From a virus: DNA of 21,366 bases. The stretch is taken from IMG/VR virus record IMGVR_UViG_3300009409_000062, positions 1 through 21,366 of that record, one strand, 5' to 3'. The notes beneath the pieces are model-generated. The model was not told where the DNA came from and made no database searches. It was given only the letters and a program-made list of their open reading frames with translations. How positions within the stretch are numbered: the first letter of the stretch is position 1; every line of letters begins with the position of its first letter. Positions 10,837-15,059 of this stretch are shown one piece after another. The translations under genes and the position numbers were made by a program.

Positions 10837-11082
10837 CTACCCCTCCTCTTCTTCTGCATCGTTGGCAGTGTCGTCAGCTTGTTCATCTGGAGGGCCGAGT
10901 TGAACCTTTGGGATGTCGATTGTCAACCTCCACGGGGGGCGGTTGTTATTTTTAGTCAGCTGATCGGCCACTGCGCGCAGCGCCGCGCTGCCCGCCTTGA
11001 CTAATACGTCTCTCAGGTCTATGGCTGTACTAGTTTTTCTAGGAACTTCCATTTCCAATGTATACGACTTATCATTACTCAT
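10837..11082 (-). CDS. Hypothetical small acidic protein, first gene of leftward operon
   Basis: This 81-residue protein is not recognised. A beta-rich N-terminus (SYTLEMEVPR), a helix (DVLVKAGSAALRAVADQL) and a second strand (PWRLTIDIPKV) are followed by a very acidic tail (DEQADDTANDAEEEEG). Two adjacent ATGs exist. The second, at 11082, is chosen because AGGAGG is 6 nt upstream (only 3 nt from the first). Its TAG precedes the regulator's start by 3 nt, within the regulator's ribosome site. As first gene of the replication unit it may be an early protein, but its role is unknown. Confidence 0.7.
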   Translation of the reverse strand: MSNDKSYTLEMEVPRKTSTAIDLRDVLVKAGSAALRAVADQLTKNNNRPPWRLTIDIPKVQLGPPDEQADDTANDAEEEEG

Positions 11083-11157
11083 CATGCGCCTCCTGGCTAG
11101 CAGATTGGGGACCAGTTTGCTTATACCGAAAATTCTGTCGCCCTTGTGGAGAACACC
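11083..11157. promoter_or_regulatory. Divergent intergenic region between the two arms
   Basis: This 75-bp gap separates the leftward replication unit from the rightward morphogenesis unit, so it should hold promoters for both. It contains ribosome sites for both flanking genes (AGGAGG for 11082, GGAG for 11158) and the promoter-like element at 11114-11133. I see no convincing host-type -35/-10 pair in either direction. Confidence 0.6.
11114..11133 (+). promoter_or_regulatory. Candidate phage promoter element, copy 1
   Basis: The sequence AGTT-tg-CTTATACC-GAAAAT lies about 38 nt upstream of the ATG at 11158. It matches AGTT-CTTATACCC-GAAAAT at 15016-15034, upstream of the polymerase gene. 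It has a -10-like TATACC but no -35 at proper spacing, which points to an unusual promoter or an operator. The direction is inferred from the downstream genes. Confidence 0.35.
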
Positions 11158-12150
11158 ATGAACAAACTTGCTAAGGTCTTGGATCACTACGATGATGGTG
11201 GTCTCCTTTTGAGAAAACTGTTTGCTGAGCGTGGGATGCCATCAGTCATCAAGACTGCTGCTGACCTGTCCAACAACACGAGAAAGAACGACACGGACTA
11301 TGCGGTCTGTGTTGGTACGTCGTCGGGCAGGCAGTTCCGGTACCCCTGCACTGACGCCGGCAACACGCTTGCGTCTGCTGTCTACTTCGGCGAGTACGGA
11401 GACAGCCTCCCTGACGACATCAGAAAAGAGGCGGCTACTCGGCTTAATGGGGCGTTGGCTTCATTCGGATTTACCCCCCCAGACGAGCTGACGAAGACCG
11501 CCGCTATGGAGTTGGGGTTCAGTGGGGAAGGGGACGACATGGCCCTTGAGAAGCTGTTTGGCTTCGCCGGCAAGGACGATCCCTTTGAGATCGTGGAGGA
11601 CGCTTTTAACAACTGCAGCCCCCGCGGGAAGCGCCGGATTATGATGCAGGTCAAGGAGGCGGGGCTTGCTGATGAGACCTTTTCAAGAGAGCTTATGGAT
11701 TACAGCAGAGACGAGGTCGGCAGTGACTTCGAGATGGCGCTGGACACGCGAAAGTTGTGTGCTATAGACCCTGAAGCGACTGATGAGCTGAGCGCGCTAA
11801 AGGAGAAGAAGGCTTCCGTGAGTCCCGATGACCTCGCTGCTGAACTGGCTGCATTCGACGTAAGGCACGGAATTACGCACTTGTACGGTAGCGTGATCCC
11901 AGACCCCTATGCGTCCGTTTTGGGAACTAGCATCGAGAAGAGCGCATCCGTCTCCCGCCCTGTTGAGATCGATGGGCGGGAATACGACAACGAGACCATC
12001 AGCGCGTTCGCAGAGAACAGCGCAGATCGCGTCACTGGTGCCTTCGGTGATGACTTCACGGAGCAGTTCCTGTCAGACCCGTCTGGCGTACTGTCGAGCC
12101 TGCCGATCACACATAAACAGGCAATTGCTCGGATGATTGATGAAAGCTAA
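11158..12150 (+). CDS. Hypothetical protein, first gene of morphogenesis arm
   Basis: This 330-residue protein is of unknown function. It begins MNKLAKVLDHYDDGGLLLRKLF. Residues ~40-100 contain RQFRYPCTDAGNTLASAVYFGEYGDSLPDDIRKEAATRLNGALASFG, a layout (YP..t...A..YF.....lP...r..aA..l..a...fG) that I associate loosely with phage virion-associated proteins. The rest is helical and acidic with no recognised catalytic motif. The ATG at 11158 is preferred to the in-frame GTG at 11146, since GGAG sits 6 nt before it. It overlaps the next gene by 11 bp. Its place two genes before the portal suggests a role in head assembly or the virion. Confidence 0.75.
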   Translation: MNKLAKVLDHYDDGGLLLRKLFAERGMPSVIKTAADLSNNTRKNDTDYAVCVGTSSGRQFRYPCTDAGNTLASAVYFGEYGDSLPDDIRKEAATRLNGALASFGFTPPDELTKTAAMELGFSGEGDDMALEKLFGFAGKDDPFEIVEDAFNNCSPRGKRRIMMQVKEAGLADETFSRELMDYSRDEVGSDFEMALDTRKLCAIDPEATDELSALKEKKASVSPDDLAAELAAFDVRHGITHLYGSVIPDPYASVLGTSIEKSASVSRPVEIDGREYDNETISAFAENSADRVTGAFGDDFTEQFLSDPSGVLSSLPITHKQAIARMIDES

Positions 12151-12805
12151 GACTGGCGAAGTCCCTTCGGATGGGCCGCAAACGCCAAAGCACGCGTTTA
12201 CCAACAAGGACACCCATCCGCTTGTCCTCGACCTTCTTCTGATCAAGGAGTTCGGACCAGACTATCTGGGGTGGGAGCCCGAGACGCTGTGGCTCGAAAT
12301 AGGGCGGAACTGGGGAGTAGCGACGGCAGAGAGCAGCAGAAACAAGATCCAAGCAATGAGAACGTGTCATGTCTCAGACCAGCCGTATACGTCGTGGGGT
12401 GTATTCGAGAAGGTGGCTGGTGGCCTGATGGGGCTGAGCCCAAAGTTTGATCTCATACAGCGAGCCACTCCGCACAGGGCCGCAGCAGCGCTGGAGATTA
12501 TGTCTCAGGCCAGGGATAACCGGCCTGTCTCAGACCAGGTCTACAAGTACATCGCCGCCTGTCTGTTGGACGCAGGCATGGTCTACGGGCCTGGGCCGCT
12601 TGAGCCGTGCAATAAACACATGACCAAGTTTGTGGGCGCCGATCTCCAGAAGAGCGTAAAGAGCGCTATCTCTGCAGGCAGAACACCGACCTTCGATGGC
12701 GCCAATAGCTCCGATGTCCAAGTCATGAAATCGCTGTCTGTCAAAGACTTCATCGAATACGTATCCAGGCTCCTTCTCATGCAGCTGAAGAGGCTTATCA
12801 ACTAG
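12140..12805 (+). CDS. Conserved phage protein of unknown function upstream of portal
   Basis: This 221-residue protein contains HPLVLDLLLIKEFGPDYLGWEPETLWLEI, then RNKIQAMRTCHVSDQPYTSWGVFEKVAGGLMGLSPKFDLIQRATP. The pattern 'L..lLL...fG.dyl.WepeTlw.ei ... N..Ki.A......d......W..Fe....' is one I have seen in phage structural gene clusters, but I cannot name its role. It is mainly helical, with no signal or membrane segment. The ATG at 12140 is used; a TTG one codon earlier is possible. Its start overlaps the end of the preceding gene and its TAG is 9 nt before the portal ATG, so all three are probably co-translated. A neck, connector or head-assembly role is only an inference from position. 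Confidence 0.72.
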   Translation: MKAKTGEVPSDGPQTPKHAFTNKDTHPLVLDLLLIKEFGPDYLGWEPETLWLEIGRNWGVATAESSRNKIQAMRTCHVSDQPYTSWGVFEKVAGGLMGLSPKFDLIQRATPHRAAAALEIMSQARDNRPVSDQVYKYIAACLLDAGMVYGPGPLEPCNKHMTKFVGADLQKSVKSAISAGRTPTFDGANSSDVQVMKSLSVKDFIEYVSRLLLMQLKRLIN

Positions 12806-12814
12806 GGGAAGCAA

Positions 12815-14851
12815 ATGCCTGTTCCGATGCTTGAGTCAACGAAGACGCGGTCAAAGACGGTTGGCAAGCCAGAAGGCTTCTATCCAAGTCCGTTCTTCGA
12901 TATAGCGAAGAACTATATGCCCAAGACCATCAAGGAGACCTTCTCCTGGTGTACGTACTATCAGCTGACCAATCCGCTCATCAGCGCGGTGACAAACAAG
13001 CTGGCGACATACCCGATCACAGACCTCATCTATGAGGACGATAACGAGGGTGTTGTCGCTGTGTACAGGGACCTGTTTGAGAACCAGTTTCTCCTCAGAA
13101 CGTTCCTCGTAGAGACAAATCTCGACCGCTACACCTATGGGAACAGCTTTGTTTCCGTGTCTTTCCCATTCACAAAGATGCTGAAGTGTAAGGGGTGTGG
13201 CGAAGAGGCCCCCGCCAGAGAATCTGGCTACAAGTGGAAGAAGTTCGAGTTTCACCTGGAGTGCAAGGAGTGCGGACATTCCGGCACAGCGACAGCCAAA
13301 GACGACCCCATAAAGTCTTACAAGCAGATCAGGCTGATCAGGTGGAACCCGCGCAGTATTACGGTGAAATACAACGAGATCACCGGCCGGTACCAGTACT
13401 TCTACGAGATGCCGCGGCACTTGAAAAACGACATCATGCTGGGCCGTCCCTCGGTCATTGAGACGATTCCGCAGACGTTCATTGATGCGATCAGAAAGAA
13501 AAAAGCCATTATGCTTGATTCTGGTAAGATCTTTCACGCGCGCCGCGCGTCTATATCAAGGAGCCCGTCAGATAGTGGGTGGGGGGCCCCGCTAATCCTG
13601 CCTGTCTTGAAGGACATCTTCTTCTTGCAGGTCTTGCGGAAGGCCCAGGAAGCCGTCGCGATGGAGCACATTGTGCCCATGCGTGTTGTGTTCCCGCAGA
13701 TCACAACCGACGCGAACAACCCGTATACGACCATCAACCTCAAAGACTGGCAGAAAGAGGTCCAGACCCAGATCAAGCTCTGGCGAACGGACAACAACCA
13801 CATCCCCGTGATGCCAGTCCCAATCGGCTACCAGATGATTGGGGGACAGGGGAGGTCGCTGCTACTTCACCAGGAAGTGCGGATCTATAGTGACCAGATC
13901 ATTGCCGGTATGGGCGTCCCGACAGGCTTCTTCTATGGCGAGGCACAGTACTCAGGCGCATCCGTTAATCTCCGCGCTCTTGAAAACGAGTTCCTTGGGA
14001 ACCGGCAGGACATGCTCAGGCTGGTTGAGTTCATTGCCGGCCGGGTAGCCTCGTTTTTGGATCTGCCAGAGGTAAGGCTCAAGTTCAAGCCATTCAAGAT
14101 GGCTGACGACATCCAGCGCGCAGCCTTTGATATGAACCTGGCTAATGCGGGCATGATCAGCCGGCAGTCCTTCCTGCAAAGCAGGGACTACGAGTATTCG
14201 GCCGAGCAAGAGCTAATAAAAAAAGAGACGGACACGTTCAACAAGCAACAGCGAGAAAACCAGCTCAAGCAGGCAGAGTCCCAGGGAGAGGCGCAGCTTA
14301 TTGCGACCAAGTACCAGATTCAGGGCCAGACAATGCAGGCCGAGTATCAGCAGCAGATGCAGCCTCAAGGCGGTCCTCCTCAAGGCGGTCCTCCTCAAGG
14401 CGGTCCTCCTCAAGGCGGTCCTCCTCAAGGCGGTCCTCCTCAAGGCGGTCCTCCCGGAGGCCCACCCCCCGGTGGCCCACCCCCCGACTCCCCTTCTGGG
14501 GCTGGCCCACCACCTTCTCCCGAACAAGGACCTCCCCCGCAGGGGCAGCCGGAGGTCGGGGCAGGGTCGAGCCCACAAGCGCCAATGCCACAAGGAGGAG
14601 CAGAGCAGAGCCCAATTAATGCGCAGAATGGCGGCAGTATGGTAGATCTCTTCGCCCAGGCAAAGCAGCTTACGGCACAGCTAAAAGCAATGGGCGAAGT
14701 TGACAGATATAGGGCGCTGGCGCAGTTACGCGCCAGCAACCCTGATCTATACATGTTAGTTAACCAAGCCCTATCAGGCAGTGGCCGAGCAATGCGGCCA
14801 CTTCCAGAGATACTTCCGCCGCGCGCCGGCCCAGAAAATCAAAGTATCTAG
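12815..14851 (+). CDS. Phage portal protein with internal zinc ribbon and Pro/Gly-rich tail
   Basis: This 678-residue protein forms the dodecameric portal through which DNA enters the capsid. Recognisable portal features include the NPLISAVTNKLATYPITDLIYE start of the core, DRYTYGNSFVSVSF, the RIYSDQIIAGMGVPTGFFYGEAQYSGASVNLRALENEF region and the DDIQRAAFDMNLANAGMISRQSFLQ segment. Unusually, residues 125-153 carry C125-x2-C128 ... C150-x2-C153, a zinc-ribbon-like insert. After a Gln-rich helix the C-terminus has six QGGPP repeats (residues 518-547), a further Pro/Gly-rich stretch and an amphipathic end. AGGGGA precedes the ATG by about 5 nt. No terminase or major capsid gene is in this window. 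Confidence 0.88.
   Translation: MPVPMLESTKTRSKTVGKPEGFYPSPFFDIAKNYMPKTIKETFSWCTYYQLTNPLISAVTNKLATYPITDLIYEDDNEGVVAVYRDLFENQFLLRTFLVETNLDRYTYGNSFVSVSFPFTKMLKCKGCGEEAPARESGYKWKKFEFHLECKECGHSGTATAKDDPIKSYKQIRLIRWNPRSITVKYNEITGRYQYFYEMPRHLKNDIMLGRPSVIETIPQTFIDAIRKKKAIMLDSGKIFHARRASISRSPSDSGWGAPLILPVLKDIFFLQVLRKAQEAVAMEHIVPMRVVFPQITTDANNPYTTINLKDWQKEVQTQIKLWRTDNNHIPVMPVPIGYQMIGGQGRSLLLHQEVRIYSDQIIAGMGVPTGFFYGEAQYSGASVNLRALENEFLGNRQDMLRLVEFIAGRVASFLDLPEVRLKFKPFKMADDIQRAAFDMNLANAGMISRQSFLQSRDYEYSAEQELIKKETDTFNKQQRENQLKQAESQGEAQLIATKYQIQGQTMQAEYQQQMQPQGGPPQGGPPQGGPPQGGPPQGGPPQGGPPGGPPPGGPPPDSPSGAGPPPSPEQGPPPQGQPEVGAGSSPQAPMPQGGAEQSPINAQNGGSMVDLFAQAKQLTAQLKAMGEVDRYRALAQLRASNPDLYMLVNQALSGSGRAMRPLPEILPPRAGPENQSI
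14366..14455 (+). repeat. Six tandem 15-bp repeats in the portal gene (QGGPP x6)
   Basis: The unit CAAGGCGGTCCTCCT occurs five times perfectly and a sixth time with its last base changed to C, giving 90 bp head to tail. It encodes QGGPP six times. The near-perfect DNA identity indicates recent expansion by slippage or unequal recombination. Confidence 0.97.
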
Positions 14852-15059
14852 TCGGTTGTTGTTGGCCTACTTTCCGGGGTCTAGGCTCTCCTCTACCGCG
14901 TCGTCGAAATCCGACAACGATGAATCACACACAAGGTAAGGGAGACGGCTGCAATGTTGATAGTCAGGCATGATAACTCCTTTGCTAGATGCCTAGAGCG
15001 TGTTCGCTCCTTCATAGTTCTTATACCCGAAAATGCTTTTGTAATAGCCGGAGGCGTAA
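14852..15059. other. 208-bp non-coding gap between portal and RNA polymerase genes
   Basis: This is the largest gap in the window and holds no convincing gene. A 17-codon frame from ATG 14921 and a frame from ATG 14954 that would overlap the polymerase start are not credible. I see two weak hairpins (CGTCGTCG/CGACAACG at 14899-14919 with one mismatch; GAGCG/CGCTC at 14996-15009), neither followed by a strong T-run, then the promoter-like element at 15016-15034. GGAGG at 15050-15054 is the polymerase ribosome site. It is likely a regulatory region giving the polymerase gene its own transcription. Confidence 0.6.
15016..15034 (+). promoter_or_regulatory. Candidate phage promoter element, copy 2
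   Basis: AGTT-CTTATACCC-GAAAAT lies about 40 nt upstream of the RNA polymerase ATG. Compared with copy 1 at 11114-11133 it has one extra C and lacks a TG, and both copies are followed by a base and then CT. The equal distance to the start codon in the only two right-arm genes preceded by a real gap supports a regulatory role. Confidence 0.4.

Follow-up and report, generated by a model that had tools for sequence, protein, structure and literature searches.

How phage-encoded bacterial-like RNA polymerases find their promoters is an open question. In the jumbo phages phiKZ and AR9, a virion multisubunit polymerase reads early promoters with an AT-rich motif of roughly 10 nt near -10 (PMC7598289), and RNA polymerase-encoding phages of group 1 (phiKZ-type) have no recognisable sigma factor (PMC7824862). 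Bacterial-like beta and beta' subunits also occur in mReC phages, Caudovirales from IMG/VR with capsid, portal and terminase genes (Weinheimer and Aylward 2020; PMC7481178); promoters and sigma factors are unmentioned in that paper. By description, these phages resemble the one analysed here. Our window is an entire IMG/VR record, a fragment of 21,366 bases; the sigma gene of this phage falls outside it. Genes were called with a simple custom script. Like the early promoters of phiKZ and AR9, the element described below is a conserved AT-rich motif near -10 that precedes early operons, "early" being judged from strand and gene content. In contrast to them, it is bipartite, has sigma70-like spacing and is accompanied by a co-encoded sigma70-like factor. 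The enzymes differ too, since phiKZ-type polymerases are split over several polypeptides and the polymerase of the window is fused.

An earlier note on this DNA had reported an element shared by two right-arm genes, one of them coding for the polymerase. Both copies are present where it placed them, AGTTTGCTTATACCGAAAAT at 11114-11133 (site A) and AGTTCTTATACCCGAAAAT at 15016-15034 (site B), and their core CTTATACC begins 38 and 40 nt ahead of the two right-arm ATGs, as claimed. The two copies found by pattern search are weak evidence on their own: with up to 3 mismatches allowed, two are seen in the window against 0.99 expected, and 26 of 100 shuffles reach two. It is the relatives that settle the question. 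Of 17 related loci, with polymerase identity mostly 55-69%, 15 have CTTATACC directly 5' of the polymerase gene, in a gap whose remainder is largely unrecognisable; the core is present again at the site A position in relatives holding that region, and most relatives keep it at both sites. Since the core is kept while its flanks diverge, comparison of sequences identifies the two copies as a real conserved element. The GAAAAT tail, previously taken as part of it, is not conserved: CTTATACC is followed mostly by AAAAA at site A of relatives and by TAACTAA, TAATA or similar at site B. The exact motif with this tail was therefore dropped as a search pattern. When both strands of the window were scored with a model derived from relatives, sites B and A ranked highest (Table 1), the third-best place reaching 14.0 bits.

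We examined in which direction the element is read. At both window sites the reverse strand presents GGTATAAG, then a leader, a Shine-Dalgarno sequence and the ATG of a leftward gene, and a reverse-complement Shine-Dalgarno sequence is found left of many CTTATACC matches across relatives. Among 119 model sites, 106 are on the strand opposite to polymerase and late genes and 13 on the same strand (binomial 1.5e-12, a value inflated because the model was seeded on the motif and homologous sites in relatives are not independent). In the genomes mapped, model sites occur in leftward blocks containing replication genes and small genes, and are missing from the large late blocks of the polymerase strand. 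Both copies are thus almost certainly promoters directed leftward, away from the polymerase gene, as far as sequence can tell. The earlier note had instead seen a rightward class driving right-arm genes, including the polymerase gene itself in an autoregulatory loop. Distance to both right-arm ATGs is indeed constant among relatives, at about 30 and 33 nt, but this follows from the leftward promoter, whose -35 region borders on the ribosome-binding site of the divergent gene. The rightward reading is very improbable: the strand bias runs the opposite way, which also leaves the loop unsupported, other late genes have no sites upstream, the T-1/G+1 and -10 geometry match the reverse strand only, and the start site would sit on the ribosome-binding site. 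What holds of the proposed promoter class is that it is genome-wide, distinct from host sigma70 promoters and likely read by the phage polymerase; its right-arm targets have to be given up. The statement that a -35 box is missing needs amending, as a -35-like box is found on the other strand, weak at both window sites.

Some candidates were rejected. A TTGCG-like block downstream of CTTATACC, considered as a rightward -10, was ruled out by gene orientation. Several CTTATACC matches lie within tRNA-like sequences (e.g. G001:133792-133799) and some within coding sequence; these are not promoters. In three genomes, two copies of GGTATAAG stand face to face, 38 nt apart (G001:137532-137577, G002:162615-162660 and G003:42861-42906).

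The reverse-complemented element has the form GCAAAA-N17-nATAAG. The promoter model was built from 119 sites in relatives, seeded on the motif. It displays GCAAAA at -35 to -30, a T-rich stretch at -19 to -16, a 17-nt spacer, GG at -14/-13 (above 0.9), a variable -12 and A-11 T-10 A-9 A-8 G-7 (each at least 0.97), followed by T-1 (0.84), G+1 (0.92) and a purine-rich beginning of the predicted transcript; between the motif and the start codon there are 55 nt in the median. No other 8-mer is as enriched in the upstream regions of genes of nine relatives as GGTATAAG (55 versus 1.03 expected); GGCATAAG is enriched there as well (14 versus 0.78). GTATAAG is also enriched, with 103 occurrences versus 5.9 expected. 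Neither TATAAT (32 versus 24 expected) nor TTGACA (17 versus 23) is enriched in relatives. Identical counting on 100 kb of T4 recovered the known motifs GTTTAC, GTATAAT and TATAAATA, and no GGTATAAG. Among six distant relatives (GC 50-60%), ATAAG with G-7 and variable -12 is enriched in four (G020, G026, G035 and G038), with polymerase identities of about 39-43%; the other two, G024 and G032, which carry a sigma gene, show no clear ATAAG motif. With bacterial sigma70/sigmaA promoters the class shares A-11 T-10 A-9 A-8, a spacer within the 16-18 nt range and a predicted +1 purine about 7 nt past the -10. It differs from them in G-7 (0.97), GG instead of TGn at -14/-13, GCAAAA instead of TTGACA and conserved T-1/G+1. 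T4 late promoters, served by gp55, likewise represent a phage-specific -10 class, but they have TATAAATA, no -35 element and the host core. Orientation and promoter class are well supported by these comparisons, and the sites are highly likely to be promoters of early or replicative genes. From the listed upstream regions of late genes, no late promoter consensus was established.

Table 1. Features of the window around the two promoters.
Feature	Position	Strand	Remarks
First left-arm gene, 81 aa	10837..11082	-	from ORF list; starts leftward arm
Site A putative transcription start, T-1 G+1	11113	-	predicted from model
Site A extended -10, GGTATAAG	11120..11127	-	TATAAG = -12 to -7, GG = -14/-13; 27.0 bits, second best
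Site A -35-like, CCACAAG	11143..11149	-	-36 to -30; placed from 119-site model; weak match
First right-arm gene, divergent from site A	11158..12150	+	function unassigned
34-aa ORF MPDYQHCSRLPYLVCDSSLSDFDDAVEESLDPGK, gene of site B	14867..14971	-	overlooked before; kept in relatives
Site B leader hairpin, GAGCG AACA CGCTC	14996..15009	-	stem starts at +5
Site B putative transcription start, T-1 G+1	15013	-	predicted from model
Site B extended -10, GGTATAAG	15020..15027	-	31.2 bits, best place in window
Site B -35-like, GGCTATT	15043..15049	-	placed from model; weak
Fused beta-beta' RNA polymerase, 2087 aa	15060..21323	+ (late strand)	Pfam Rpb2 and Rpb1 domains

Site A is flanked by two divergent genes. 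Its -35-like element overlaps with both the leader and the ribosome-binding region of the right-arm gene, which has no Pfam or PHROG match. Site A faces the left arm, composed of the 81-aa protein (no family match), an HTH protein, a helicase and then DNA polymerase, the helicase and DNA polymerase matches being located further left; site A would accordingly be the promoter of the replication arm. The 208-nt gap before the polymerase gene had been regarded as real non-coding sequence. Half of it is occupied by the antisense 34-aa ORF. Most of 20 loci have a small ORF of about 26-48 aa in this position, and a C-terminal (L/F)xxAVExxL-like motif is common to these ORFs. Since site B faces left onto this conserved ORF, the gap contains a short antisense gene under a promoter of its own. 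Leaders often open with a hairpin: a stem of at least 5 bp starting at +1 to +4 is present in 10 of 20 site B leaders of relatives (shuffled mean 2.4, maximum 7) and in 43 of 102 leaders overall (shuffled mean 16.7, maximum 28), and the mean folding z-score is -1.15. The 678-aa gene preceding the polymerase gene has QGGPP repeats in its C-terminal part (window 14360-14500). Polymerase open frames of some relatives are enlarged by large insertions (2498 aa in G008, 2405 in G035 and 3259 in G037, compared with 2087 in the window).

A sigma70-like protein was found in 20 of 24 polymerase-carrying records; none was detected in G021, G008, G012 and G010, which may be incomplete. It is encoded on the polymerase strand in 19 of the 20, with G032 as the exception. 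Detection relied on a profile built from relatives, because Pfam Sigma70_r2 alone finds almost nothing in them. Of six members, four pass the Pfam cut-off for Sigma70_r3; region 2 stays below its cut-off and region 4 gives a weak match only. Nearly all matches of a PDB profile search are sigma factors, and Foldseek matches are mostly sigma-containing, using a model of modest quality (mean pLDDT 63). Terminase and DNA polymerase were all that PHROG scans of genes around sigma and polymerase genes identified. Arash, D69 and one clade member carry a second sigma70-like protein, different from the first (L310:20656-21693, which is Arash gp196, L305:33187-33963 and G020:15697-16896), as a candidate late sigma.

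We wondered if the same promoters occur in cultured phages. Among upstream regions of Salmonella phage Arash, no 8-mer is more enriched than GGTATAAG (9 versus 0.11 expected), found there on the minus strand only, and most copies show T/C-1 G/A+1 geometry. Arash Gp10 is homologous to the sigma of relatives (30% identity, 2e-29) and Gp206 to the polymerase (31%). Mass spectrometry of Arash virions ranked Gp206 (beta) first with 3516 spectra, and also detected Gp216 (beta', 1210 spectra) and Gp10 (467); the authors suggested a role in early transcription and also cautioned that co-purification with virions may be all that explains the presence of abundant enzymes (PMC10585845). The word "promoter" is absent from their text. 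In Vibrio phage D69 the motif is GTTATAAG, distributed 18:1 by strand, and a homologous sigma is encoded at 10959-11681. Both phages resemble the window and its relatives in about 30% identical polymerase, homologous sigma and G[GT]TATAAG on the early strand. They differ in having the polymerase split into two proteins and in carrying the second sigma of the other type, and D69 also has T at -13. The sole plus-strand GGTATAAG of Arash (L308:11588) is situated just before gp9-gp10, the latter coding for the virion sigma.

Which enzyme reads these promoters? The reader would be the holoenzyme of the phage itself, made of fused beta-beta' core and the phage sigma70-like factor. It would recognise the -35 GCAAAA-like element, 17-nt spacer and extended -10 GGnATAAG, and start at T-1/G+1; the transcript would pass through its leader and Shine-Dalgarno sequence into a leftward gene, at site A the first of the replication arm and at site B the antisense mini-gene. 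Polymerase and sigma both have their genes on the late strand. Presumably they are produced late and packaged; once injected, the holoenzyme would begin early transcription in the next cell. As a whole, early promoters read by such a virion-carried holoenzyme are the best explanation, which we hold with reasonable confidence. Reading by a phage sigma is likely when judged from sequence, and it is somewhat more probable than not that phage core does so as an enzyme of the virion.

Many phages begin with host polymerase, and the sites might be ordinary early promoters read by host RNA polymerase with host sigma70, leaving late promoters to the phage enzyme. TATAAG differs from TATAAT by a single base and the -35/-10 spacing is sigma70-like. 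Yet a near-invariant G replaces T at -7, the consensus hexamers are unenriched, +1 G is conserved and the same motif is found in phages of GC 48-62% and in Arash, a Salmonella phage with TATAAT at background level (1 versus 1.6 expected); such reading is therefore unlikely. Alternatively, the phage sigma could steer host core to the promoters while phage core has another role, a strategy for which T4 gp55 (annotated so) is known and with which co-occurrence of the sigma70-like gene and the motif agrees. We regard this as quite unlikely, given that beta, beta' and sigma are found together in Arash virions (PMC10585845), that sigma is encoded on the polymerase strand in nearly all records, and that the clamp-helix region, the part of bacterial beta' which binds sigma, is covered by the alignment with the phage polymerase.

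The promoter class is, in the sequences compared, common to distantly related phages with their own bacterial-type RNA polymerase and their own sigma. No description of it was found in the open-licence literature searched; we cannot exclude that a sigma has been paired with a virion polymerase earlier elsewhere. There is about an even chance that a complete sigma-type holoenzyme, with beta-beta' fused (window clade) or split (Arash, D69) and no alpha found or needed, is carried in the virion by a phage lineage of ancient origin and serves dedicated G-7 early promoters, whose conservation extends over Salmonella, Vibrio and uncultured phages. If true, packaging of sigma together with core would allow transcription to start without host RNA polymerase. 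The analysis supplies a concrete promoter consensus and a candidate sigma, and Arash is a culturable phage for testing both.

Finally, a second, palindromic motif of TATTA-N3-TAATA type, e.g. TATTAGCCGCTAATA, was observed in G008 (L186-L193) and also in G007, G005 and G004. ATTA-N5-TAAT is present in 209 copies, 71 of them non-coding, versus 12 and 3 for the inverted control. This motif is possibly an operator or a partition site.
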